Shown one piece after another: positions 17,754 to 48,289 of a stretch of 64,000 bases of DNA. Origin of the DNA: Pseudomonadota bacterium (lineage in GTDB: Bacteria; Pseudomonadota; Gammaproteobacteria; Burkholderiales; Sulfuriferulaceae). The stretch covers positions 62,001 through 126,000 of the forward strand of contig JAJZUW010000003.1 of assembly GCA_021845925.1 (NCBI GenBank), in the 5' to 3' direction. Both the position numbers and the translations under genes were made by a program. The notes beneath the pieces are model-generated. The model had not been told where the DNA came from. It did not search any database and saw only the letters and a program-made list of their open reading frames with translations. Each line of letters begins with the position of its first letter. Position 1 is the stretch's first letter.

Positions 17754-19175
17754 ATGAAACTCGAAATGAACAGCAGCAATATTTTTATCAACAGTCGGCG
17801 TGGCCTTGCAGCCATGCTACTCGCCGGAGGTGCCCTGGCTTCCTGGCAAGCATCCGCTACGCCAATTTTTGCCCGCCAGACCGGTGAAAACTGTCTTGCC
17901 TGCCACGCCGGCGGACAGTTCCCCGAACTGACCCCTTATGGCCGTCTGTTCAAGCTGACCGGCTTCACCCTCGGCAAGCGCACGCCAGTCCCGCTGGCTG
18001 TCATGGCGGTTTTCGGTTCCACCACCAACGGTCCGGCACTGGCTCCGGCAGCCAGCTCTCCTGGCCATACAGCCAGTGACGGCACCCCTACCATCTACAC
18101 TGGCAGCCTGTTTTTTGGCGGCAAGATCACTGACAACATCGGCATGCTGGGCCAGTACACCTGGGGCAACTATAACGGTGCAAACAGCGACGCCATCGGC
18201 GGTGGTTCCGACAACACGGATATCCGCTATGCCAACCGTATTTTCCGCAATGGCAACGACATCATCTACGGCATGTCGCTCAACAACAATCCGGGCGTGG
18301 AAGATGTCTGGAACAGCAGCCAGACCTGGGGTTATGGCGTGGTGCCAGGCAGCGCCGGCTCTCCGGCCGGCTATACCATTCTGGATGGCGGACTGGCCGC
18401 CCAGGCCGTCGGCATCGATGCCTACCTGTACTGGAACCAGACCTATTATGCTGCGGTTGGCGCTTACCGCACCGGCAACGGCGTGTTCTCTTTCCTGACC
18501 CAGAACAATGGCGGCCAAACCTATCTGGCTAACACCAGTCCGTATCTCCGCCTGGCATATACCCACGAGTGGGGACCGCAGAACATCGAAGTAGGCTACA
18601 CCCTGTTCGACGCCGATGTATACGAAGGCAGCGACAGCCTGGGCAACAGTTACACCAATTCCGGCCCGTATGACGAGCATCGCGACAACGCCATTGATGT
18701 GCAATACCAGTATCTGCTGGATCCACACACAATTACGGCCGAATTCTCGCGCATCAACGAAGTCATCAACCCGAGTGGCGCCAACCCTAACAACTACAAC
18801 GCCAGTCTGGGTGGTCAGGGAGTGGTCAACGAAACCAAAGCCAAAGTCTCATACACCTATGAAGCGCGTTATGGAGCGGCGCTGGGGTATTACAACTTTT
18901 CGTCCAACGAGGCATATGGCAACACCTATTGGCAAAACAGTCAAGCAGCCTCGGCACCCGACTATTTTGGCCCAGGCACTGTGACCGCCTTTGTGCCGGA
19001 ACTATTCTACATTCCGCTGCAAAATGTCCGGATCGGTCTGCAGTACACCATGTACACGCAGATTCCGACGCAAAATGCCTTTAACCAGAACTTTACGGGC
19101 AGCAACAGCAATGGTCAGGCCTGGCATGCCAGTGATTTCAACCAGACCTTCCTGTATGTGTGGGCAGCCTACTGA
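17754..19175 (+). CDS. Outer-membrane porin fused to mono-heme cytochrome c (Cyc2-like)
   Basis: A 473-residue exported protein. A signal peptide containing RRGLAAMLLAGGALASW ends near residue 35. It is followed at once by TPIFARQTGENCLACH, one c-type heme site, and PELTPYGRLFKLTGFTL. The remaining roughly 400 residues are rich in aromatic and polar alternation and end in tyrosine (TFLYVWAAY), as expected for a beta-barrel. This order and length match fused cytochrome-porins such as Cyc2, the iron oxidase of acidophilic and neutrophilic iron oxidisers, but related proteins also occur in other bacteria. A diheme cytochrome follows 70 bp later, suggesting electron transfer across the outer membrane. 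The electron donor is unknown. Confidence 0.75.
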   Translation: MKLEMNSSNIFINSRRGLAAMLLAGGALASWQASATPIFARQTGENCLACHAGGQFPELTPYGRLFKLTGFTLGKRTPVPLAVMAVFGSTTNGPALAPAASSPGHTASDGTPTIYTGSLFFGGKITDNIGMLGQYTWGNYNGANSDAIGGGSDNTDIRYANRIFRNGNDIIYGMSLNNNPGVEDVWNSSQTWGYGVVPGSAGSPAGYTILDGGLAAQAVGIDAYLYWNQTYYAAVGAYRTGNGVFSFLTQNNGGQTYLANTSPYLRLAYTHEWGPQNIEVGYTLFDADVYEGSDSLGNSYTNSGPYDEHRDNAIDVQYQYLLDPHTITAEFSRINEVINPSGANPNNYNASLGGQGVVNETKAKVSYTYEARYGAALGYYNFSSNEAYGNTYWQNSQAASAPDYFGPGTVTAFVPELFYIPLQNVRIGLQYTMYTQIPTQNAFNQNFTGSNSNGQAWHASDFNQTFLYVWAAY

Positions 19176-19245
19176 GCGCAGCGCGCAACCTGCCTAATGG
19201 ACACGCTGGCGGCGTGTCCCGACCCGAATAGAGTGGAGAAGTCCC

Positions 19246-19893
19246 ATGAAAAAAATGACCTTGATCCTGTCGCTTGCACTGGCTGCCACGGCTACCGGCT
19301 GCAGCAATGTCGAACACTCGCGCGACGTCGCCAACCCGGCCGTATCCGGCAAGGTTCTGGCCCAGCAAGTGTGTTCCATGTGCCATGGCGTCACCGGCAA
19401 TTCCGTCAATCCGACATTCCCGAAACTGGCTGGCCAGCAAAAAGACTATCTGACCGATCAGCTCAAGTTCTTTCGCAAGCACAACCGCAGCGATCCAGCC
19501 GGCTCGGAATACATGTGGGGCATCAGCCGCCACCTGACCAACGACCAGATCGCGCAACTGGCTGATTACTACGCTGCCCAGACACGCATTCCAGACCCTT
19601 CAGTCAATCCTTCCCTGGAAGAGCTGGGCAAGCAGATTTTCACCCATGGCGTGAATGACGGCGCCCGTACCGTTCCGGCTTGCGAAACCTGTCACGGTAC
19701 GGATGCCCATGGTCGCGGAAGTTTCCCTTTCATTGCCGGCCAGCACGAGGACTACATTCTGAAGCAACTGAACATTTTCAAGGAAACTGAAGAGCGCGAT
19801 GAAAAACTGGGCCAGATGATGAAGAATGAAACCCATGATCTGTCATCAGAGGAAATGAAAGCCGCTGCAGCTTACATCGCCACCATGCCCTGA
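19246..19893 (+). CDS. Diheme cytochrome c (c4-like), possibly lipidated
   Basis: A 215-residue exported cytochrome with two heme sites, CSMCHG near residue 44 and CETCHG near 145. These form two similar domains, each with a likely axial methionine (SEYMWGISRHL and LGQMMKNETHDL). The architecture resembles cytochrome c4. The signal peptide ends TATGC, a weak lipobox, so it may be anchored in a membrane. It follows the porin-cytochrome gene and precedes a strong terminator, so the pair is probably one operon. The likely role is to carry electrons from the outer-membrane protein to the inner-membrane chain; this is inference. Confidence 0.85.
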   Translation: MKKMTLILSLALAATATGCSNVEHSRDVANPAVSGKVLAQQVCSMCHGVTGNSVNPTFPKLAGQQKDYLTDQLKFFRKHNRSDPAGSEYMWGISRHLTNDQIAQLADYYAAQTRIPDPSVNPSLEELGKQIFTHGVNDGARTVPACETCHGTDAHGRGSFPFIAGQHEDYILKQLNIFKETEERDEKLGQMMKNETHDLSSEEMKAAAAYIATMP

Positions 19894-19962
19894 TTTTTCC
19901 GGACGGCGGGCGGCGGCACGCTGCCGTCCGCCAGACCGGAAACCTTGGCGGCAGTCTGCCTG

Positions 19963-19989
19963 ACGGAGCGTTGCTGACGCTCCGTTTTT
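19963..19989 (+). terminator. Rho-independent terminator after cytochrome operon
   Basis: A perfect 9-bp stem (ACGGAGCGT and its complement) with a 5-base loop is followed by TTTTT. It lies 70 bp after the cytochrome stop. A second GC-rich stem (GGACGGC/GCCGTCC, 19901-19929) precedes it. It separates the cytochrome pair from the TraB-like gene. Confidence 0.9.
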
Positions 19990-20027
19990 ACGTCAGAATA
20001 CCGTCTGTTGGTAACAATGGATATCGC

Positions 20028-23312: not shown

Positions 23313-23353
23313 ATTTCGCCGGACATTGACAGGATCCTCCGGGGAGAAGCTTG

Positions 23354-23824
23354 GTGCGAAAATCATGGCTGCTCGTGTATGGCGGTTTCGGCATTCTGCT
23401 GGGCGAGCAGCACCCGGCGGCACATGCCGACTGCTGGCAGACAACCGAAGATCGTTTCGGGGTGTCCAGATACCTTTTGCTGGCCATTGCCGAAACCGAA
23501 TCTGCGATGAATCCGTCCGCAATCAGCCATAACCCGGATGGCAGCGTCGACATCGGCCTCATGCAGGTCAATTCCCGCTGGCTACCGGCACTGGCAGCGC
23601 AGGGCATCAGCATGGCAGACCTGCTGGACCCATGCACAAGCCTTGAGGTTGGTGCATGGATACTCGCCGGCAATTTTGTCCGTTACGGCTATAACTGGCG
23701 CGCCATCGGTGCTTATAACGCCAGAACCGAATCCTTGCGCATGCGTTATGCGTGGCAGATTTCCCGCAAACTGAAGATGCTTGCCAAGGAGTACCCGCTT
23801 GAAACGCATGGAACCACTCGCTGA
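23354..23824 (+). CDS. Conjugation-type lytic transglycosylase (VirB1/TrbN-like)
   Basis: A 156-residue exported enzyme that probably opens peptidoglycan for a transfer channel. A signal peptide (LLVYGGFGILLGEQHPAAHA) precedes an SLT domain with the catalytic glutamate in AIAETESAMNPSA. IGLMQVNSRW and IGAYNAR complete the family pattern. GTG at 23354 is chosen because GGGGAG lies seven bases upstream; a TTG directly before it is possible. It overlaps the trbB start by 26 bp, tying it to the trb operon. Confidence 0.85.
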   Translation: MRKSWLLVYGGFGILLGEQHPAAHADCWQTTEDRFGVSRYLLLAIAETESAMNPSAISHNPDGSVDIGLMQVNSRWLPALAAQGISMADLLDPCTSLEVGAWILAGNFVRYGYNWRAIGAYNARTESLRMRYAWQISRKLKMLAKEYPLETHGTTR

Positions 23825-24860
23825 AGCCGGCCATGCCCGCGCCCTGGAAGTGCTCGATAGCGTTCTGGCGCCGGTCAGGCATCATCTCGAAGACGAACAG
23901 GTTCAGGAAATCATGATCAACAACCCTGCCACCATCTGGATCGAACGCGCCGGACAGATGTTCAGGGCTGCCGAACATCTTCGTGCACTGGATCTTGAAC
24001 TGGCCGTGCGAGCCGTGTCTGCCGTCAACAGCAAAAAATCAGGCTTGCTCACCGACGCACGTTTACCGGGCATTCGCATCGCCGCAGTCATGTCGCCGGT
24101 GGCCCTGCATGGACATGCCATGTGCCTGCGCAAGCACGCAGCACGCAAAACCTCTCTGGAAACCTGTGTCAATCCGGACCAGACCAGTCAGCCAACCAGC
24201 CAGCCACAATCCGGGCATCATGGCCGGACCAGCCTGCCAGCGGACGAATGCATCCGCAAGGGCGGGGAGGGTCTGCTTGCATTCCTGCGCTGGGCAGTTG
24301 AAACGCGCTGCAACCTGCTGGTGGCAGGCGGCACCAGCTCCGGCAAAACCACCCTGGCCAATGCTCTGCTGGACAACATACCGCCAGAACATCGCGTCAT
24401 CACGCTGGAAGACACCGCCGAACTGCGCCCCGAACTGCCCAATTGGGTTGCCTTTGAAGCCAATCCGAACCTGGGCGTCGATATCCGCGCACTGGTCAAA
24501 ATGTGTTTGCGCTTTCGTCCCGACCGCATTGTGGTGGGCGAAATACGCGGCGCCGAAGCCTACGATCTGATTGATTCGCTCAACACCGGTCATCCGGGGG
24601 GCATCACCACCATTCATGCCGACCGGGCCGAATCGGCCGTGGACCGGCTGGAAACCCTCATGCGCATGTCACCGGACACGTCCGGCTTTCCACATGAATT
24701 CCTGCGCCGACGCATCGCCGGCACATTCCGTTTCGTGATCGAAACCGCCAACCGCAACGGCATGCGGGGTCCGGTCCGGATCGTGGAAGTACTGGGCTAC
24801 GCAAACGATCGATATTCCTTCCGCGAAATCTACAACAGCACTGACAGGAGACGGCCGTGA
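23799..24860 (+). CDS. trbB: Type IV secretion ATPase TrbB (VirB11 family)
   Basis: Hexameric cytoplasmic ATPase of the transfer apparatus. The 353-residue protein has an N-terminal domain (VQEIMINNPATIWIERAG) and Walker A in LVAGGTSSGKTTLANALL. It also has ITLEDTAELRPE, Walker B-like RIVVGEIRGAEAYDL, and the GHPGGITTIHAD box. A TTG start at 23799 (MKRMEPLAEAG) is preferred because AAGGAG lies seven bases upstream; the ATG at 23808 is 16 bases away. A Gln/Ser-rich insert near residue 130 (SQPTSQPQSGHH) is unusual. All catalytic motifs are intact. Confidence 0.92.
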   Translation: MKRMEPLAEAGHARALEVLDSVLAPVRHHLEDEQVQEIMINNPATIWIERAGQMFRAAEHLRALDLELAVRAVSAVNSKKSGLLTDARLPGIRIAAVMSPVALHGHAMCLRKHAARKTSLETCVNPDQTSQPTSQPQSGHHGRTSLPADECIRKGGEGLLAFLRWAVETRCNLLVAGGTSSGKTTLANALLDNIPPEHRVITLEDTAELRPELPNWVAFEANPNLGVDIRALVKMCLRFRPDRIVVGEIRGAEAYDLIDSLNTGHPGGITTIHADRAESAVDRLETLMRMSPDTSGFPHEFLRRRIAGTFRFVIETANRNGMRGPVRIVEVLGYANDRYSFREIYNSTDRRRP

Positions 24861-25105
24861 ACCCCTTGTTTCAACCCTTTTGCTATGTTCTGAATACCCT
24901 GCTGATCAGCAGGTCCATGATTGCACTGACCGTTGCCATCATTCTGGCGGTCGGCATCATCGCCTGGATGACAGACCTTGGCGGCAGGGGATTTCCACTC
25001 ATGACCTTTCTTGTGGTCGCCATGGGCATCGGCATTCTGCTCGGAATTCCAGCCATTCTGACCGGCATGGGTGTCGATATCCCCTGCATGGCGCCCACCA
25101 GCTGA
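24857..25105 (+). CDS. trbC: Pilin-like subunit TrbC (VirB2 family)
   Basis: An 82-residue very hydrophobic protein with two membrane segments (MIALTVAIILAVGIIAWM and LMTFLVVAMGIGILLGIPA). It occupies the trbC position between trbB and trbD. TrbC forms the conjugative pilus. It is shorter than IncP TrbC, with a short N-terminal part and no evident long leader. The GTG start at 24857 overlaps the trbB stop (GTGA) and has GGAG upstream. No TraF-type maturation peptidase is in the window. Confidence 0.75.
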   Translation: MNPLFQPFCYVLNTLLISRSMIALTVAIILAVGIIAWMTDLGGRGFPLMTFLVVAMGIGILLGIPAILTGMGVDIPCMAPTS

Positions 25106-25135
25106 ATCGGGCATCCGCAGAAAAAGGAGCCTCAC

Positions 25136-25450
25136 ATGTCCATCCGCCTCACTCCGGTCGCAACCCGCCTGTCCGAAGTCAAGATGCTCGCCGGTGGTGA
25201 ATTCAAGCTGGTCGTCGCCAACATGGCATTCGCCGGACTTGCCATCGTCATGCTGCACGTCTGGCAATACCTGCCGGTCCCGCTTGCCGTGCATGGCGCA
25301 CTGGTGATGGCCGCCCGGCACGATCCGCGCTTGCGTGAAATCTATCTGGCATATGCCAGACAGGGGGACGAATACCTCGCATGGCCCGCTACCCGGCTGC
25401 AACGGTACAACCGGCGTCCGCACGGTTTTGCGCGACACGGGCAATGCTGA
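25136..25450 (+). CDS. trbD: Conjugal transfer protein TrbD (VirB3 family)
   Basis: Small inner-membrane component that works with the VirB4-type ATPase. The 104-residue protein has a hydrophobic pair of segments (VVANMAFAGLAIVMLHVW and VPLAVHGALVMAA). The VirB3-type motif HDPRLREIYLAYARQGDEYL follows. AAGGAG lies before the ATG. The gene ends 1 bp before the trbE start. The C-terminal basic tail (RYNRRPHGFARHGQ) probably faces the cytoplasm. Confidence 0.85.
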   Translation: MSIRLTPVATRLSEVKMLAGGEFKLVVANMAFAGLAIVMLHVWQYLPVPLAVHGALVMAARHDPRLREIYLAYARQGDEYLAWPATRLQRYNRRPHGFARHGQC

Positions 25451-25451
25451 C

Positions 25452-27908
25452 ATGGCACACAGGGACGCCAGGCCATTTGCCGAGTTGCTACCCTGGATGC
25501 TGGTGGCCGGCAATGATGATGTCATCGTCAACAAGGACAGCAGCCTGACGGTCATCTATGAAACGCGCGGTCTGGACCGGGATTCGGCCACCACGGAAGA
25601 CATGGCCTGGTATGCACAGGCCCTGGATCAGGCATATGCCGTGTTTGATGAAAGCGCCTGTGTCATCAGCTGGATCGTGCATCGCAGGCGAATCGCCGAA
25701 TATCCACAGGCCGGATTTCCCGACCAGTGGAGCGCCATGCTGGACAACATTCGCCGCGAACGCATGGTTTCCGGAAACCAGTATGTCAACCGGCACTATC
25801 TGGCCATCACCCTGACGGCCGAAAAGGGCATGAGCAGCGTGGCCAGCCGGTTATCGTTTTACCTGGCACAGGGCATGGGCAACATCCGCGCTGTCTGGCA
25901 CCTGCTGACAGCCGTATTCCGGCAGAATGAATCGTTTGCCTGGAATGCTGCCGAACTGCAGGAACAGATCGCGCGGTTTTCGGGATTGCTCCAGGCATTC
26001 GAAGAACGTCTGGCCGGCATCGGACTGAAACGACTTCACGGCGATGTCCTGCGAGGTGTGTTGCGCCGTTGCGCCAATCCGGCTTCAAGCCAGCAGAAAG
26101 TCGTTCACATGCCATTTCTGGACACCCAGATGGCTGACGGCAATCTCAGGGTCGACGCCAGCAGCCTGATCATCGATGACATCCGCTGGCTCAAGGGGCT
26201 GTCGCTGCGCGAACCGCCCCGACACACCCACCAGGGCATGTATGACAGTCTGCTTGGCATCAGGGGCGAAATCGTCTTCAGCCAGAGCTTCCGCCTGGCA
26301 CGCCGCAAGGAAATCAGCGCCTGGCTGGTGAGCGTGCGGCAATACAACGATCTGCTCAAGTATTCGCCGCTGACCTGGCTGTATCTTGCGATCAACCGGA
26401 ATGCGGATGTGCGCATGAACGACGCACGGGTCGAAGCTGCCGAGGATGCACACCGCATCAGCAGTCTGGTGGACATGAAAGAAATGTCCTTCGGCTGGTA
26501 TGCAGCACAGGTCATGGCCATCGGTCGCAACGAAGCCGAAGCGGACGACCTGTTGCAGGACATTTCCGGCGCGCTGGCCCACAATGGCCTGACAACGGTC
26601 CGCGAAGGCATGCATCTGCTGTCTGCCTTCGCCGGCGGACTGCCCGGCATGCACACGGCGCTCACACGCTGGTTTTTTCTGGAACTCGCCTCGCTGTCAG
26701 ATCTCACGCCACTGCTGACCATCGATCCGGGCAAGCCCGACAACGACTATCTTGCCCAGCAGCGAGGCCGGCATTCACCATCGCTGATCATGCTGGAAAC
26801 CGCATACAACACCCCGTGGCATTTCAATCTGCATGTTGGCGATCTCGGACATGCGCTGGTGGTCGGGCCATCCCGATCCGGAAAATCAAGCGCGATGAAT
26901 GTACTGATTGCGCAATTTCGCAAATACACACCCTGTCGCATCGTCATTTTCGACAAGGACCGTTCGTGCAGGATTGCCACCAGCATGATGGGTGGCGACC
27001 ACATCGATGTCACGCGGCCAGGCATTCAGTGGAACCCGCTCAGCCTGCTGGCCGATCCGGCTGCTCTCGAATGGCTGGCCGGTTGGATCGAAGGTCTGAT
27101 CTGTCATCGCGGTTACCAGTATTCCGCAGAAGATATCGCGGATGTCTGGCGCGCCCTGCAAGGACTCGCCCTTCAACCACCCGGATTGTGGACGCTGGGC
27201 CATCTGCACGCGGTGCTGTCACCACATTTGCGCAATGAGCTGGACACCTGGGTTGGGCATGGTGCGCTGGCCCACTATTTTGACAACCCGGAGGACACCT
27301 TCAGTCTGACCGACTTCTGCTGCATCGAAATGGGCGAGATCCTGACCCGCCAACACGTGGCACGCGCGTTTATCGATTATGCGTTTTTCCGCATTTACCA
27401 GTCCCTGCGCGATACCGGCCGGGGCGTTGTTCCAACGCTGGTCTATGTGGAAGAATGCTGGTTCATGTTCGAACACCCCTGGTTTGAACAAAAAATCCGC
27501 GACTGGACAAAAACCTTCGCCAAGCTGGTGGCACAGCTGGTTCTGGCAACCCAGTCACTGGAAGACATTGCCGCCTCGACTGTCTTTGCCAGTCTGCGCG
27601 ACAACATTCAGACACGGATCTATCTGCCCAATCTCAACGCCGGCTCACCACAGCTGCTGTCGCTTTACCGCGATCAGTTCGGCCTGCATCCCGACCAGAT
27701 CGGCATGATTTCGCAAGGCAGGCCCAAACGAGATTACTTTATCCAGCAACCCGGTCTGTTCCGCAAGGCGGAAATGTCGCTCGACCCGGCAACGCTCGCC
27801 GTTGTGCGCTCGGACACCCGCGCGCAGCAGATATTTCAGCGTCACCAGGACGGCGGTCGTCCGGACTGGCGACGGGAATACATGATGGAGATGCTTGATG
27901 AACACTGA
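25452..27908 (+). CDS. trbE: Conjugal transfer ATPase TrbE (VirB4 family)
   Basis: Large ATPase that energises the type IV channel. From ATG 25452 (MAHRDARPFAELLPWM) it has 818 residues, near the usual 820-850. The N-terminal CagE/VirB4 domain is followed by Walker A in VVGPSRSGKSSAMNVLI near residue 475. Walker B appears in VPTLVYVEECWFMFEHPWF. The conserved LVLATQSLEDIAAS follows. The frame is intact with no stops. The start follows the trbD stop by one base. Confidence 0.95.
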   Translation: MAHRDARPFAELLPWMLVAGNDDVIVNKDSSLTVIYETRGLDRDSATTEDMAWYAQALDQAYAVFDESACVISWIVHRRRIAEYPQAGFPDQWSAMLDNIRRERMVSGNQYVNRHYLAITLTAEKGMSSVASRLSFYLAQGMGNIRAVWHLLTAVFRQNESFAWNAAELQEQIARFSGLLQAFEERLAGIGLKRLHGDVLRGVLRRCANPASSQQKVVHMPFLDTQMADGNLRVDASSLIIDDIRWLKGLSLREPPRHTHQGMYDSLLGIRGEIVFSQSFRLARRKEISAWLVSVRQYNDLLKYSPLTWLYLAINRNADVRMNDARVEAAEDAHRISSLVDMKEMSFGWYAAQVMAIGRNEAEADDLLQDISGALAHNGLTTVREGMHLLSAFAGGLPGMHTALTRWFFLELASLSDLTPLLTIDPGKPDNDYLAQQRGRHSPSLIMLETAYNTPWHFNLHVGDLGHALVVGPSRSGKSSAMNVLIAQFRKYTPCRIVIFDKDRSCRIATSMMGGDHIDVTRPGIQWNPLSLLADPAALEWLAGWIEGLICHRGYQYSAEDIADVWRALQGLALQPPGLWTLGHLHAVLSPHLRNELDTWVGHGALAHYFDNPEDTFSLTDFCCIEMGEILTRQHVARAFIDYAFFRIYQSLRDTGRGVVPTLVYVEECWFMFEHPWFEQKIRDWTKTFAKLVAQLVLATQSLEDIAASTVFASLRDNIQTRIYLPNLNAGSPQLLSLYRDQFGLHPDQIGMISQGRPKRDYFIQQPGLFRKAEMSLDPATLAVVRSDTRAQQIFQRHQDGGRPDWRREYMMEMLDEH

Positions 27909-28797
27909 ACGGTCCCGGCCAGCACAATGGCGGGCTGCCAAAGTCATGCCACATCCCGGCATCCTTCTGTCTGACATGAAACGGCACTGGTTGACGACGG
28001 GCCTGCTGCTGGCCATGGCCAGCCAACCGACCCAGGCTGGCGGAGGCACCGTGGCCGGCACTGGCGGTGCCCTGGAATGGACCCAGGAACTGAATTATGG
28101 CCAGCTGCTGAAAAACACCGTCAGCCAGGCCAATCTGGTGGCCCGCGAAGTCAGTGCAGAAATCCAGAGAGCACAGATGCTGGTGAACGAAGCCACCAAT
28201 CTGGCCAATGCGCCGGCCAGCGTGGTTTCGCAAATGGTCACACCTTACCAGCAAATGGTCAGCGAGGGGCAGAACATGCTTGACCAGCTTGACCAGTTGC
28301 AGACCAGTTATCAGCAGGCGCTCCAGATGGTACAACAGCGATATGCAGAAGCCCAGGCGCTTGGCACGACGCCGGCGCAGTACATCGCGCTGGAATCTGG
28401 TCTGGCTGCCACAAGACAGGGCCAGTATGCCTTGTTGTATGCCCAGGACAAGGCTACCCTGCAGGCTGTGCAGGCACGCTCGGAATCGCTGCAGAACGCC
28501 ATCGACAGCGGACAGCTGCAAAGTCACGGGACTGTGGATGGCCTGGACAGACTGAATGCGCTGGTTGCCATGGTCGGCGGCGAAACACAAACGCTGAACC
28601 GGCAGATTGCCCAGGCCGAAGCCGCCAAAAACCTGAGTCATCTCAACGAGGTGCAAAATCTGGCTCTGCACGAACAAAACCAGAACCAGACCATCGCGAC
28701 ACAGGACCAGGAAACATCAACCCTGCTCGGCAATGCAGCCCGGGCTTCCGGTTATCACCAGCAACAGATAGAGCAGCAGGCGTGGGCCGGCAAATGA
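27898..28797 (+). CDS. trbJ: Conjugal transfer protein TrbJ (VirB5-like)
   Basis: Predicted periplasmic pilus-tip or assembly protein. The signal-like stretch WLTTGLLLAMASQPTQAGGG lies near residues 30-50 if the ATG at 27898 is used. That ATG has GGAG seven bases upstream and overlaps the trbE stop. A shorter form from 27976 places the signal peptide at the N-terminus but lacks a clear ribosome binding site. The mature part is a long Gln/Ala-rich coiled-coil helix bundle (QANLVAREVSAEIQRAQML), typical of TrbJ. About 299 or 273 residues. Confidence 0.85.
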   Translation: MNTERSRPAQWRAAKVMPHPGILLSDMKRHWLTTGLLLAMASQPTQAGGGTVAGTGGALEWTQELNYGQLLKNTVSQANLVAREVSAEIQRAQMLVNEATNLANAPASVVSQMVTPYQQMVSEGQNMLDQLDQLQTSYQQALQMVQQRYAEAQALGTTPAQYIALESGLAATRQGQYALLYAQDKATLQAVQARSESLQNAIDSGQLQSHGTVDGLDRLNALVAMVGGETQTLNRQIAQAEAAKNLSHLNEVQNLALHEQNQNQTIATQDQETSTLLGNAARASGYHQQQIEQQAWAGK

Positions 28798-29060
28798 TGC
28801 TCAACCGGTGCCTGCAACGCCTTGCCCTGCAAACCGTTCCTTCCGGAATCCGCAGACCGGTATTGCGAGCGCTCCGTCTGTATGCCGGCATGCCTCCCGA
28901 ACGCCGGCAGACATTCAGACTGCCAACCGGGCTGTCGCTCCGGCATCGCATCCTTCTGGCCCTGATCATGGTCCTGCTTGAACAGCCGGAAAAACTCTTC
29001 TGGCTGGTTCTGGCATGCCTGCTGTTCTGCATGACCCACCTGCGGGAAATCCACGCGTGA
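28794..29060 (+). CDS. Small membrane protein at the trbK position
   Basis: An 88-residue basic protein with one strong membrane segment near the C-terminus (LFWLVLACLLFCMTHL) and a shorter one before it. It overlaps trbJ (ATGA) and trbL (GTGA), so it is part of the operon. In Ti-type clusters this slot holds trbK, an entry-exclusion lipoprotein. This protein has no N-terminal lipobox, so it is not a normal TrbK and may be a different protein. Confidence 0.6.
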   Translation: MMLNRCLQRLALQTVPSGIRRPVLRALRLYAGMPPERRQTFRLPTGLSLRHRILLALIMVLLEQPEKLFWLVLACLLFCMTHLREIHA

Positions 29061-30496
29061 CAGGCCAGAACAGGCTGCCGGCAGCCCGTCTGATGACCGG
29101 GGTTCTGGCCGTTTTCCTGCCCGGGATCGTCCAGGCATCGACGACTGTCGTCAGCGGAAGTCCGCCAGACCTGGCCAGTATCATCGTAACCACGATGTCT
29201 GCCATGAACAGTGCTGGTGCAAGCATGGCCGGCAAACTGGTACACACGGGCGAACAGCTTTCTGCCGTTCTGTTTGCCCTGATGTTTGCCTGGCAGGTGC
29301 TTCAGGGCATCATGGCGCAACGGATGGATGCACTTATCCGCAACATACTGTCCTTGTGTCTGACATTTGCCATTGTGATGCTGATGCTGGGCAGCTGGGG
29401 CAGCAACGCCGGCATGGGCATCCGTGCCTTTGTCGTGGATGGCATGAACAGTCTGAGCGCCGCCTTTGCACCGTCAGGCGCAGACCCGACAGACCGGGTC
29501 ATTGACCAGTTCGGTCTGGCCATTGGTGACTGCGTCACCCTGGTGTCGCGTGCAGTCGCCTACATGCCGCCGTTCCGGATGGATGACCTGGCTGCCAGCA
29601 TGTACGGACTTGGCCTGGTTGCCATCATCGCGATTGTCTCGGGTATTTGCATTTACGCGCTGGTCATCGCCCTGGCATTCAGTATCCTGTACATCAACCA
29701 GGGCGCATTCATTGTCTATATCGGTCTCGCGGTCGGCCCGGTATTTGTTGCCCTGCTGCTGTTTCCTCCTGCCAACGGCTTCTTCCAGAGATGGGCGGAT
29801 TTCATCATTTCCGGTGGCGTTCTGAAGCTGGTTTCGGTACTGGTCAGCGCGCTGCTGGCTGCGTTGTTCGGCAACCTGCAGACCAGCGGAACCCAACTCC
29901 TGCAACTGGTCACCCGTCAGGCAATCCAATCCGGCAGTTTTGACATCACCGGTTTTCTGGCCTGGTGCCTCGAAATGCTGTTCTGGGCTTTCTTTTCGTA
30001 TCAGCTGGTCAAGGAAATCCCCTCATTTTCCCATGCGCTGTCCGGAGGGGCCCGTGGCGGCGTAACCAGTCTCGCAAATATCCTGCCGGGTGGAGTCGAT
30101 ACCATGCTTGCCGGCAAAGGCAAGGAAACGGCTGGCGCAGCCGCCGGCGTGGCAAAGACAATGGCGAGAAGTGCGGCCGGTACGGCGGGCAGTCTGGCCT
30201 GGCGTGGCCTCAACCAGGCAACCGGCGGATTTCCGCAGGCGGCCCGGGATTACTTTCACCACAAACAAGTCCACGAGTCGGCGCTGGATGCCGCCCGGAA
30301 AAGCCATGACAAGGCCGCCATCAAGAACTGGGCCGAAGACATGGTGGCGCGCGAGCACGCACCAGACCGCCATGAACAGGTACAGGCCGAATTGCGCGAA
30401 CAGGCGGACAAGGAAGCCACGCGCAATTTCCGTCAGCAGGTCAGTACGATGGCCGGGCAAATTCAGCAGGAACGTGAACGCGGCGAACGGGAATGA
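29057..30496 (+). CDS. trbL: Conjugal transfer protein TrbL (VirB6 family)
   Basis: Polytopic inner-membrane channel component. From the GTG at 29057, which overlaps the preceding stop, it has 479 residues. A signal-like segment (TGVLAVFLPGIVQA) is followed by about six membrane helices (for example ILYINQGAFIVYIGLAVGPV, a VirB6/TrbL signature region). A long hydrophilic tail rich in charged residues follows (EQVQAELREQADKEATRNF). The frame appears complete. It is the last recognisable transfer gene; trbF, trbG and trbI, which normally follow in this order, are absent. Confidence 0.92.
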   Translation: MTGQNRLPAARLMTGVLAVFLPGIVQASTTVVSGSPPDLASIIVTTMSAMNSAGASMAGKLVHTGEQLSAVLFALMFAWQVLQGIMAQRMDALIRNILSLCLTFAIVMLMLGSWGSNAGMGIRAFVVDGMNSLSAAFAPSGADPTDRVIDQFGLAIGDCVTLVSRAVAYMPPFRMDDLAASMYGLGLVAIIAIVSGICIYALVIALAFSILYINQGAFIVYIGLAVGPVFVALLLFPPANGFFQRWADFIISGGVLKLVSVLVSALLAALFGNLQTSGTQLLQLVTRQAIQSGSFDITGFLAWCLEMLFWAFFSYQLVKEIPSFSHALSGGARGGVTSLANILPGGVDTMLAGKGKETAGAAAGVAKTMARSAAGTAGSLAWRGLNQATGGFPQAARDYFHHKQVHESALDAARKSHDKAAIKNWAEDMVAREHAPDRHEQVQAELREQADKEATRNFRQQVSTMAGQIQQERERGERE

Positions 30497-36518: not shown

Positions 36519-36540
36519 TATGCGTTGACATTGTTCTGTG

Positions 36541-36716
36541 TTCCCTGCGGTGTCCGTTCGGGTTGCAAATTCTTTGAACCAATAATTGACGACTGGTTGC
36601 AGTAAATGGTGAAGGCTGTTGTGCGCGTTACAAGTTGATGTGCCTGAGGCGTCCCTGCTGCGACCCCTTGAACCTTCGGTTCAAGATCCGCAACCCAACG
36701 GCATTTGCGGGGGCTC
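36541..36716 (+). ncRNA. ssrS: 6S RNA
   Basis: Regulatory RNA that binds housekeeping RNA polymerase in stationary phase. It lies between zapA and the 5-FCL gene, the conserved location. The ends pair: CCCTGCGG and GGGTTGC near 36543-36566 with GCAACCC and GCGGGGG near 36690-36713. The 3' half contains CCTTGAACCTTCGGTTCAAG, which closely matches the 3' section of E. coli 6S RNA (CCTTGAACCAAGGGTTCAAG). The open bulge would be central, near 36600-36640. Exact ends are approximate; no promoter is assigned. Confidence 0.8.
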
Positions 36717-36726
36717 CCCAACCCCC

Positions 36727-44929: not shown

Positions 44930-45334
44930 ATGTTCTGGAATGAGGAGCCGAAGCGGTCAGCCCGGATCGAATTGATTCCGATGATCGACGTGATGATGTT
45001 CCTGCTGGTGTTTTTTGTCCTGATCAGCCTCAACGTGATTCCGGCCAAGGGCGTCAAAACCGAATTGCCGGCCTCTTCACAGCGGGAAACCATCAAGCCG
45101 GCCCGCCACCTGGTTGTGGTGATTGCGCGCTCTGGCCAGATTTCCATGGGCAACCAGCAGTACAGCCTGCCTCAACTGGCGCAGCAACTCACCACTGAAC
45201 GCAAGACTGTTGACCATGTGGACATGGTTGTCAGTGGTGACAAAGGCGTGGACATGCAGGCGCTGATCGATGTCATGGATGCGGCTAGAGCTGCCGGCAT
45301 CACGGACGTATCGATTGCCAGCAAAGCACGCTGA
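44930..45334 (+). CDS. exbD: TonB-system proton channel subunit ExbD
   Basis: Inner-membrane partner of ExbB that couples the proton gradient to TonB. The 134-residue protein has one membrane helix with the essential aspartate in IELIPMIDVMMFLLVFFVL and a periplasmic domain ending VSIASKAR. AAAGAG lies upstream of the ATG. It is the first gene of exbD-tonB-receptor-exbB-phosphoesterase, an unusual order because exbB normally comes before exbD. Confidence 0.9.
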   Translation: MFWNEEPKRSARIELIPMIDVMMFLLVFFVLISLNVIPAKGVKTELPASSQRETIKPARHLVVVIARSGQISMGNQQYSLPQLAQQLTTERKTVDHVDMVVSGDKGVDMQALIDVMDAARAAGITDVSIASKAR

Positions 45335-45338
45335 CCAT

Positions 45339-46031
45339 ATGCTTTCTTTCGTCTTTCACAACCGTGACAAAACGGCAGCAATGGCAGCCTTGCTGCTGGC
45401 CGGACTGCTGATGCTGTTGCAGAGCATTTTTGTCATCCAGCGTGTCTCCGCCCCGCAACCTCCGATGCAGGTTCGCCTGGTCGATCTGCCCAAGCCACCA
45501 GAGCCTGTGCCACCCAAACCGGTACCGGTCACGCCAGCGCCTCCACGCCCGGTCACGCCTCGCCCGGTGGTGCAACACCAGCCGGCAGTCAAGACCCCAC
45601 TACCCGTGAAGCCTTCACCGGCACCAGCTCCGGCGTCGGTTGTGGCAGCACCACCAACCCAGGCTCCTGCGCCAGTTGCAGCACCCGTGACCCCAAACGC
45701 ACCGCCAGTGCAACAGGGCCCCACCGAAGATGCCGCTGGTGAAGAAGCCTTTGCTGCCGGGGTGCGCGCCAGCATCGAAGAACAGAAAACCTATCCGATG
45801 GCAGCCCGGCAAACCGGCATTTCCGGCACCGTCGACATTCGTTACGTGCTCTCGCGCAGCGGCAAGCTGCTGTCGGCCGAAGTTGCCGTGTCGTCCGGCT
45901 CTCCGCTGCTCGACCGGGCTGCCTTGCGCGCCGTGCAGGACGCCGTTTTCAGTCCCATGAAGGCCACCTTCTGGCCCGGCCAGAACCAGAAAGAATTCCA
46001 TACCAAAGTTGTATTCAAGCTGATTGATTAG
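45339..46031 (+). CDS. tonB: TonB energy-transducing protein
   Basis: Spans the periplasm and energises the outer-membrane receptor. From ATG 45339 it has 230 residues. One N-terminal membrane helix (MAALLLAGLLMLLQSIFVI) and a long Pro-rich linker (PKPPEPVPPKPVPVTPAP and further) come first. A C-terminal TonB domain follows (ISGTVDIRYVLSRSGKLLSA, SGSPLLDRAALRAVQDAVF, ending KVVFKLID). It is 4 bp after exbD. A second TonB is encoded at 62756. Confidence 0.93.
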   Translation: MLSFVFHNRDKTAAMAALLLAGLLMLLQSIFVIQRVSAPQPPMQVRLVDLPKPPEPVPPKPVPVTPAPPRPVTPRPVVQHQPAVKTPLPVKPSPAPAPASVVAAPPTQAPAPVAAPVTPNAPPVQQGPTEDAAGEEAFAAGVRASIEEQKTYPMAARQTGISGTVDIRYVLSRSGKLLSAEVAVSSGSPLLDRAALRAVQDAVFSPMKATFWPGQNQKEFHTKVVFKLID

Positions 46032-46054
46032 TTTATTAACCCAGGGAGTCACCA

Positions 46055-48289
46055 ATGCAAAACGTGAAACTCAAACCTGTACAGGCAGCCGTCATGCTGG
46101 CTTGCCTGTGCATTTCCGGTCTGGCGCAGGCGGATAACGGGGCTGTTACGACCCAGGACGTGTCCGTGCTCGGCCAGGGCGCAACCCGCGAAACCGAAAC
46201 CCTGACCCAGGCAGACCTGCAGATCGAGGCCGCCGGCACCAACCCGCTGAAGGCTCTGGAAATCCTGCCTGGCGTCCAGTTCGACTCATCCGACCCCTGG
46301 GGCAACTACGAGTGGTCCGAACAGATCACCATCCGCGGCTTCAACCAGAACCAGCTCGGCTTCACCCTGGATGGCATTCCGCTTGGCGACATGAGTTACG
46401 GCAACAACAATGGTCTGAGCATTGGTCGTGCCATTGCGCCGGAAAACATTTCCACAGTGTCGGTTGCCCAGGGCACCGGCGCTCTGGGGACTGCGTCAAC
46501 CAGCAACCTGGGTGGCACGGTTGAATTCACCTCCAGCGATCCACGCGCCAAGGCGGGCGTCGAGACCATGCTGACCGGCGGCGACAGCTCGACCGGCCGC
46601 GTTTTCCTGCGGGTGGACACGGGCACCTTCAGCCAGGGCAATACCACCGCCAAGGCTTATTTCAGCTACTCGAACGACAGCACCGACAAATGGAAGGGCT
46701 GGGGTTCGCAAAAACAGCAACTGTGGAATGGCAAGCTGGTGTTCAATGTCGGCAACAGCAGCAAGATCTCGCTGTTTGGCGACATTTCGCATCGCGATGA
46801 AACCGACTACGCCGACCTGTCCCTGCAAAGCGCAGCTCTGCTTGGTTTCGGCTTTGACAACTACGCTCCCAACTGGAATCGCGCCGTGAATGCTGCCAAT
46901 GGCGTTTACACCGGCGGCGTGCAGAATCTGCCTGATCCGCTGGACGCAGCCTACTATCTCGGTCGCGGCCTGCGTGATGACGAACTCACCGGCCTGACCG
47001 GCGATTTCCGCCTGTCCGACAGCGTGCAGTTCAAGGCTGTGCTGTACACCCACCACAACCGTGGCGAAGGACAATGGTATACCCCGTACACACCGTCTTC
47101 CACGTCTGTGCCAATCTCGGTGCGAACCACCGAATACGGCATCCGTCGCGAAGGTATCAATGCTTCGGTGACCTGGCAGGCCAACGATGTCAACACAGTG
47201 GCTGGCGGTCTCTGGCTTGAACACAACGTGCATGATCTGGCTCGGCGCTTTTATGCCATCAATGGTCCGGTCGACACCGATTACTACCTGACCAATCCGT
47301 TCTACACCCAGTTCCAGCAGCAGTTTGTGATCGATACCCGTCAACTGTGGGCCCAGGACACCCTGTCGCTGCTGAACGACCGTCTGACGCTGGTCATCGG
47401 CGCAAAATCGCCTGATGTCACCATCAGTTCCACCAACTATGTCGGCAACCTGGCTGCCGGTTCGATCAGTTCCAGCGGATTCCTGCCACAGGCCAGCATG
47501 AACTACCAGATCGACAGGCACAATGAAGTGTTTGCCACGGTGGCGGAAAACCAGCGCGCTTTCCAGCCGGGCATTTCCGGTCCGTTCTCGGCAACCCAGA
47601 CCACATTCAATTCGATTGCGCCCGGACTCAAGCCGGAAACATCGATTGAAGAAGACCTGGGCGTGCGCACGCACCAGAAAAACCTGGAAGCTTCGTTCGA
47701 CCTGTACAACGTGGATTTCAAGAACCGTCTGCTGACCATCAGCCAGTGTGCCGGCATCGTGGGTTGTGCCAATGCGCTGGCCAACGTGGGATCGGTGAAC
47801 ACCAAGGGCATGGAAGCCGCCGTGCGCTGGTTGCCGGTGGATCACTTCTCGGTGATGAACAGCCTGACCTACAACAACTCCCAGTACCAATCCGATTACA
47901 ACAACGGGGGTACGCTGGTCGCAACAGCCGGCAAAACCGTGGTTGATGCGCCGAAATGGATGTATGCGCTGCGCTTCGGCTACGAAAAAGATGGTTTCTT
48001 CGGCGATCTGACGGGTAAATACACTGGATCACGCTATATCACCTACCTGAACGATGCCCAGGTTCCATCATTCTGGGTGTGGGATCTCAGCGCAGGCTAC
48101 AAGCAGGATCATCTGGGTCCGGTCCAGGATTTCCGCATTCAGCTGAATGTGGTCAACCTGCTCAACAAGGACTACTTCAGCTCGCTGGGTACAAACGGTT
48201 ATGTTGCTTCCGATCCGACCGGAGCGTACTACACGTTGCAGGCTGGAGCACCACGCATGGCGTTCCTGACCCTGAGCGGCCGGTATTGA
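46055..48289 (+). CDS. TonB-dependent outer-membrane receptor
   Basis: A 744-residue receptor. The signal peptide ends in ISGLAQA, and a TonB-box-like stretch (TTQDVSVLGQG) follows. A plug domain with PLKALEILPGVQFDSSDPWG and TIRGFNQNQLGFTLDGIPLG leads to a 22-strand-type barrel ending in an aromatic residue (FLTLSGRY). Its position with its own tonB and exb genes and a phosphoesterase suggests import of one substrate class, possibly a phosphorylated compound or its metal complex. The substrate is not known. Confidence 0.93.
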   Translation: MQNVKLKPVQAAVMLACLCISGLAQADNGAVTTQDVSVLGQGATRETETLTQADLQIEAAGTNPLKALEILPGVQFDSSDPWGNYEWSEQITIRGFNQNQLGFTLDGIPLGDMSYGNNNGLSIGRAIAPENISTVSVAQGTGALGTASTSNLGGTVEFTSSDPRAKAGVETMLTGGDSSTGRVFLRVDTGTFSQGNTTAKAYFSYSNDSTDKWKGWGSQKQQLWNGKLVFNVGNSSKISLFGDISHRDETDYADLSLQSAALLGFGFDNYAPNWNRAVNAANGVYTGGVQNLPDPLDAAYYLGRGLRDDELTGLTGDFRLSDSVQFKAVLYTHHNRGEGQWYTPYTPSSTSVPISVRTTEYGIRREGINASVTWQANDVNTVAGGLWLEHNVHDLARRFYAINGPVDTDYYLTNPFYTQFQQQFVIDTRQLWAQDTLSLLNDRLTLVIGAKSPDVTISSTNYVGNLAAGSISSSGFLPQASMNYQIDRHNEVFATVAENQRAFQPGISGPFSATQTTFNSIAPGLKPETSIEEDLGVRTHQKNLEASFDLYNVDFKNRLLTISQCAGIVGCANALANVGSVNTKGMEAAVRWLPVDHFSVMNSLTYNNSQYQSDYNNGGTLVATAGKTVVDAPKWMYALRFGYEKDGFFGDLTGKYTGSRYITYLNDAQVPSFWVWDLSAGYKQDHLGPVQDFRIQLNVVNLLNKDYFSSLGTNGYVASDPTGAYYTLQAGAPRMAFLTLSGRY

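Follow-up and report, generated by a model that had tools for sequence, protein, structure and literature searches.

A Cyc2-family gene and its Cyc1-like diheme cytochrome c4 neighbor in a Sulfuriferula genome: a candidate electron conduit with a possibly lipid-anchored partner

The cyc2–cyc1 locus

The window (the whole stretch of DNA that was analyzed, 64,000 nucleotides) carries a pair of cytochrome genes, encoding the proteins P0001 and P0002, whose features are listed in Table 1. The two reading frames lie on the same strand, 70 bp apart, and share a terminator.

Table 1. Features of the cyc2–cyc1 locus (positions in the window)
Feature	Position	Strand	Basis
cyc2-like gene (P0001), fused monoheme cytochrome-porin, 473 aa	17754..19175	+	ORF, homologues, motif as in PMC8406198
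P0001 signal peptide, residues 1–35, MKLEMNSSNIFINSRRGLAAMLLAGGALASWQASA	17754..17858	+	by eye
Cyc2 cytochrome signature TPIFARQTGENCLACHAGGQFPEL with single heme site CLACH (residues 47–51)	17859..17930	+	
Predicted outer-membrane barrel, residues 76–473, ending VWAAY	17979..19172	+	inferred from family membership (PMC8406198)
cyc1-like diheme cytochrome c4 (P0002), 215 aa, CSMCH and CETCH, lipobox-like signal ...ATATGC/SN	19246..19893	+	
Two hairpins; T5 follows the second, an intrinsic terminator at the end of the pair	19895..19990	+	MFE −62 kcal/mol for 19880–19995, z −5.7

P0001 starts at an ATG with the ribosome-binding site GGGAGG. Its signal peptide, read from the sequence, has a basic n-region (RR), a hydrophobic core (GLAAMLLAGGALA), and a cleavage site ASA/T; across this site the protein reads ASA-TPIFARQTGENCLACHAGGQFPELTPYGRLFK; it contains the stretch ATPIFARQTGENCLACHAGGQFPELTPYGRLFK, and runs to a YVWAAY C terminus with Tyr as the terminal residue. 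After residue 35, there are exactly two cysteines, both in CLACH. A preliminary description of this locus, made from the DNA letters and their translations, had noted the signal peptide, the single CxxCH, the C-terminal Tyr, and the length of 473 residues, and all four were confirmed for this reading frame; both reading frames also lie at the positions it had given.

The published Cyc2 signature consists of A-x-P-x-F-A-R-[QK]-[TY] upstream of a single CxxCH, with PxL downstream (Keffer 2021, PMC8406198). P0001 satisfies this signature, reading ATPIFARQT-GEN-CLACH-AGGQF-PEL; the gaps between the motifs are given as 5 and 4 residues in the published description and come to 3 and 5 in P0001, a comparison in which the counting convention matters (PMC8406198). 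Cyc2 proteins are further expected to have at least 365 residues with a porin segment, and P0001 has about 400 residues after the cytochrome part. In a profile of 25 P0001 homologues, A35, P37, Q42-T43-G44, C47, C50, H51, and L59 are invariant.

Two CxxCH motifs are present in P0002, which matches PF00034 at 3.6e-21. A cytochrome c4 is expected to have two class I cytochrome domains, two CxxCH motifs, and a mature length of about 180 to 200 residues, and P0002 agrees with this. Among solved structures, its closest relative is 1h1o (A. ferrooxidans cytochrome c-552/Cyc41; E = 2e-33), with an alignment that spans residues 41–213 and includes both heme sites; with the family profile, 1h1o scores 4e-58, and ordinary c4 ranks behind it. 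1h1o is the Cyc41/Cyc1 structure of A. ferrooxidans (PMC10879576). The sequence data support a Cyc1-like assignment for P0002, as a predicted diheme c4 of the Cyc1/Cyc41 type, which sharpens the earlier description of a c4-like diheme neighbor. The terminator noted earlier was also recovered: the second of its two stable hairpins, ACGGAGCGT-loop-ACGCTCCGT, runs into TTTTT, as in a textbook intrinsic terminator, and is absent from the list of a simple scanner.

The host genus and published Sulfuriferula Cyc2

The host genome (G000) comprises 2.34 Mb in 15 contigs. Two genomes of its GTDB genus carry plasmids whose first 20 kb match NZ_CP021139.1 (Sulfuriferula sp. AH1) in one case and NZ_AP021882.1 (S. 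nivalis) in the other at 100% identity, and on these grounds we place the window in Sulfuriferula.

Previous work has shown that four Sulfuriferula strains, including AH1, grow on Fe(II) and encode Cyc1 and Cyc2 (Hobart et al. 2025, PMC12285272). According to the same study, cyc2 occurs in all four described species, the Cyc2 of these strains has its nearest relatives in cluster 2, and the strains, which are obligate chemolithoautotrophs, also grow on pyrrhotite, sulfide, and thiosulfate (PMC12285272). The AH1 genome has one Cyc2-family locus (L012), 49 to 55% identical to P0001 and with a diheme c neighbor of the same kind; because it is the only such locus in that genome, we take it, by uniqueness and not by locus tag, to be the published Cyc2/Cyc1 pair. 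The present locus shares with AH1 and its relatives the genus, the gene pair, and the Fe(II) growth reported there (PMC12285272), and differs in sequence divergence only, P0001 being longer in a segment close to its C-terminal end and occupying a branch of its own with the MAG BP5.bin102. The cyc2–cyc1 pair is real but largely ordinary, as a genus with the pair and with growth on iron had already been published; what is added here is the extension of that case to another species.

Distribution and phylogeny of the Cyc2-family gene

Homologues of P0001 were found in most genomes of the genus (14 of 18) and, at the level of the order, in 67 of 300, which shows that the gene is not a chance reading frame. 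One Sulfuriferula genome (G017) shows no homologue of Cyc2 despite a completeness rated at 100, and not every member of the genus thus carries the gene. With P0001 as a single query, a contig search gave one relative and a search of viral contigs none.

Among loci with enough downstream sequence, the Cyc2 gene is directly followed by a cytochrome with at least two CxxCH in 39 of 74; for the full-length Sulfuriferula loci, a diheme c stands directly downstream in every case (15/15). The pairing of cyc2 with a diheme c is common to many Burkholderiales families.

A tree of 76 proteins was built with IQ-TREE and rooted at the midpoint; the verified A. ferrooxidans Cyc2 is not among these proteins. 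The 15 Sulfuriferula Cyc2 proteins form one clade (support 100/100), within which P0001 adjoins MAG BP5.bin102. In this midpoint-rooted tree, which lacks the verified A. ferrooxidans Cyc2, P0001 groups with a Cyc2 encoded in a rus operon, away from two cluster-1-like proteins. Plasmid-borne homologues of Paraburkholderia, Ideonella, and Caballeronia fall into neighboring clades, and the large clade to which P0001 belongs also contains Methylocystis. To our knowledge, none of these four genera is known for iron oxidation. The preliminary description had named clustering with organisms that do not use iron as the outcome that would count against it; by that measure its reading stands only by half, since the immediate clade is that of a genus reported to oxidize iron and the wider clade is mixed. 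Two previous studies have warned that function is unverified across much of cluster 2 (Keffer 2021, PMC8406198, and a Gallionellaceae paper, PMC10734462). Because homologues occur in soil Burkholderiaceae and in methanotrophs, we regard iron as the likely, yet unproven, donor.

As a separate observation, a Cyc2-family gene lies on plasmids of A. ferrooxidans YQ-N3 and Acidiphilium cryptum JF-5 (L035 and L115), with matching tblastn scores and coordinates and with FAAQT in place of FARQT. The match points to recent plasmid transfer between acidophiles.

Comparison with the rus operon and other known systems

Rusticyanin searches gave nothing across 398 genomes of the phylum and one rus operon (L108) when limited to genomes that carry Cyc2 homologues. 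The L108 operon, which was used as the functional anchor for P0001, reads cyc2-cup-coxBAC-ctaAB-rus (gene names by eye), with Cyc2 7 kb from the rusticyanin gene. Residues 18–470 of P0001 align to the L108 Cyc2 with a low identity of 29.5% (E = 1e-43); CxxCH and PxL are separated by 5 residues (AGGQF) in P0001 and by 3 in L108. The Cyc2-type match proposed earlier holds on two counts, the defining motif (PMC8406198) and this end-to-end alignment, and the assignment of P0001 as a putative Cyc2-family protein on the cluster 2 side is supported. As regards L108 itself (G928:C3:233500-247500), the operon lacks cyc1, and a second, stand-alone Cyc2 lies elsewhere on the contig; a rus-operon arrangement without cyc1 resembling that of L108 has been described for Thiobacillus prosperus (PMC2754497).

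A rus operon comprises cup, coxBACD, and rusticyanin in a cluster, and the neighbors of P0001 are lysA and unrelated genes. The present locus resembles the A. ferrooxidans rus operon in that a gene for a fused monoheme cytochrome-porin is directly followed by one for a diheme c4, the best PDB relative of which is 1h1o, but here rusticyanin, cup, and coxBACD do not lie alongside, and a cbb3 oxidase is encoded elsewhere in the genome. Ferrovum likewise has a diheme c4 (CytC-18) directly downstream of a Cyc2-like gene, with a proposed feed to a cbb3 oxidase (PMC10879576), and Ferrovaceae Cyc2 belongs to cluster 2 (PMC13390463). Ferrovum is, however, an acidophile, and its CytC-18 was treated as periplasmic, with the N-terminal signal peptide removed (PMC10879576).

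Cluster 1 Cyc2 proteins (Mariprofundus, Gallionellaceae) share family, motif, and single heme with P0001, whereas the two cluster-1-like proteins sampled (L025 and L095) align with it over the N-terminal approximately 130 residues only and sit on a very long branch. MtoAB/PioAB and the Pcc porin-cytochrome complexes are also electron conduits across the outer membrane, but in these systems the porin and a multiheme cytochrome are separate proteins, and no MtoA homologue was found in the host genome.

A lipobox-like signal on the Cyc2-linked cytochrome c4

The signal of P0002 ends in MKKMTLILSLALAATATGC-SN, Cys included. By eye, the hydrophobic signal closes with a cysteine in 33 of the 39 diheme partners (about 29 by a lipobox-like pattern), and all 15 Sulfuriferula partners have this residue; the residue that follows this cysteine in the Cyc2 partners is never Asp. 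The six partners without it (L018, L020, L058, L069, L112, and L113) all belong to other clades. By contrast, the stand-alone c4 proteins of the genus (8 loci) have an ordinary AxA site and no Cys, and this includes the one encoded in the host genome itself (L140, G000:C3:148210-148830).

By rule of thumb, these signals predict a lipid anchor and an outer-membrane location for P0002. This would distinguish it from A. ferrooxidans Cyc1, which has been termed periplasmic and membrane-bound (PMC2754497), so that membrane attachment of Cyc1 is in itself not new; no description of a lipobox-like signal on a Cyc2-linked c4 was found in the literature searched. We tentatively propose, at somewhat less than even chances, that in Sulfuriferula and sister lineages the partner of Cyc2 is a lipid-anchored diheme c4, held beside Cyc2 at the periplasmic face of the outer membrane, and no free periplasmic shuttle. 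If true, the two proteins would form a fixed three-heme conduit in the outer membrane, distinct from the ordinary soluble c4 of these cells. For species that lack rusticyanin, the apparent anchor offers a simple, testable idea of how a one-heme porin passes its electrons on through the periplasm, and this possible lipid-anchored partner is the sole part of the finding worth follow-up.

A solitary lipobox c4 was also seen, at L136:1501-3284 (G004:C90), with another diheme c downstream and no adjoining Cyc2; further upstream lies a gene that looks by eye like a GGDEF response regulator.

Proposed electron transfer and alternative functions

The suggestion in the preliminary description that the pair is a candidate electron conduit is well supported, although not new, by the Cyc2 motif, the rus-operon alignment, the Cyc1/Cyc41-like partner, and a genus that grows on Fe(II) (PMC12285272). 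That description had also proposed checking the genome for inner-membrane partners, and the host genome encodes a cbb3 oxidase operon and one cytochrome b, together with RuBisCO; a cluster resembling nitric oxide reductase is also present (by eye). A search of the same genome for MtoA and rusticyanin found neither.

We consider it probable that the Sulfuriferula pair consists of a cluster-2-type Cyc2, most likely taking electrons from Fe(II), and a Cyc1/Cyc41-type c4 that relays them. In such a scheme, dissolved Fe(II) at the cell surface would most likely be the electron source for Cyc2, whose single heme, within the barrel, would pass the electrons to the periplasm. The diheme c4, probably lipid-anchored, would accept them next to Cyc2; from there they would run downhill to the cbb3 oxidase and uphill to the bc1 complex, the latter route serving CO2 fixation. 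Gene content is what is shown here; the donor and the direction of flow are what we infer, with each transfer step modeled on A. ferrooxidans and Ferrovum (PMC10654088, PMC10879576).

The strongest competitor, to which we give a small but appreciable chance, is that the Cyc2-family conduit serves a donor other than, or beyond, dissolved Fe(II), such as sulfide-mineral surfaces, another metal, or a cathode-like surface, as part of general extracellular electron uptake by a sulfur and mineral oxidizer. The Cyc2 family is widespread beyond iron oxidizers, homologues have been implicated in electrode oxidation in Ca. Tenderia electrophaga (PMC5371394), and the range of substrates used by Sulfuriferula besides Fe(II) (PMC12285272) would suit such a role. 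On the other hand, strains whose Cyc2 is the orthologue of P0001 (AH1) do grow on Fe(II), and neither MtoA nor rusticyanin offers itself in the host genome as an alternative candidate for iron oxidation.

It is distinctly less probable that the pair is an export or protective system that oxidizes stray Fe(II) or dumps electrons with no energy gain, as is perhaps the case in soil Burkholderiaceae and methanotrophs. The plasmid homologues in Paraburkholderia, Caballeronia, Ideonella, and Methylocystis, which are also near or adjoining a diheme c, and the paralogous pairs in some genomes (G004 and G009) would fit this idea, but the RuBisCO, cytochrome b, and cbb3 oxidase of the host are as expected for chemolithoautotrophy, which is obligate in the strains of the genus that grow on Fe(II) (PMC12285272).

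Placement of P0001 in the outer membrane is predicted from family membership, the Cyc2 family having been described with a 16-strand β-barrel (Keffer 2021, PMC8406198), and the C-terminal part would presumably form such a barrel. The barrel-like region named in the preliminary description had likewise been deduced, and the computations described below gave no confirmation of it. Searches of solved structures with P0001, both as a single sequence and as a profile, gave no relative. That there is no outer-membrane conduit, and that P0001 is a monoheme protein, secreted or periplasmic, with a long C-terminal part of some other fold than a barrel, is very improbable: an AlphaFold2 pLDDT of 26 (from an input alignment of two sequences only), a period-2 hydrophobicity of the porin region not above that of shuffled sequences, and a C-terminal part without a Pfam, NCBIfam, or PDB match speak for it, but the end-to-end homology to the rus-operon Cyc2, a composition rich in Gly/Asn/Tyr and poor in Lys, and a terminal aromatic residue in nearly all homologues speak against it.

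Other features of the window

Conjugation and type IV secretion genes lie at 23351–30493 (SLT transglycosylase, VirB11-like ATPase, TraG/VirB4-like P-loop protein, and TrbL/VirB6) and represent an integrated conjugative element or its remnant. We considered whether the cyc2 pair might be part of these genes, 3 to 10 kb downstream of it, and rejected this, as the pair is found across the genus and as a 411-aa ORF, the length of lysA, lies directly upstream in a related MAG (L003) too. A 6S RNA is located at 36539–36717 (Rfam RF00013, 58.6 bits). Approximately 25 kb from the cyc2 pair, at 44930–48289, genes for an ExbD-like protein and a TonB-like protein (both by eye) and for a TonB-dependent receptor form an iron/metal-uptake unit.
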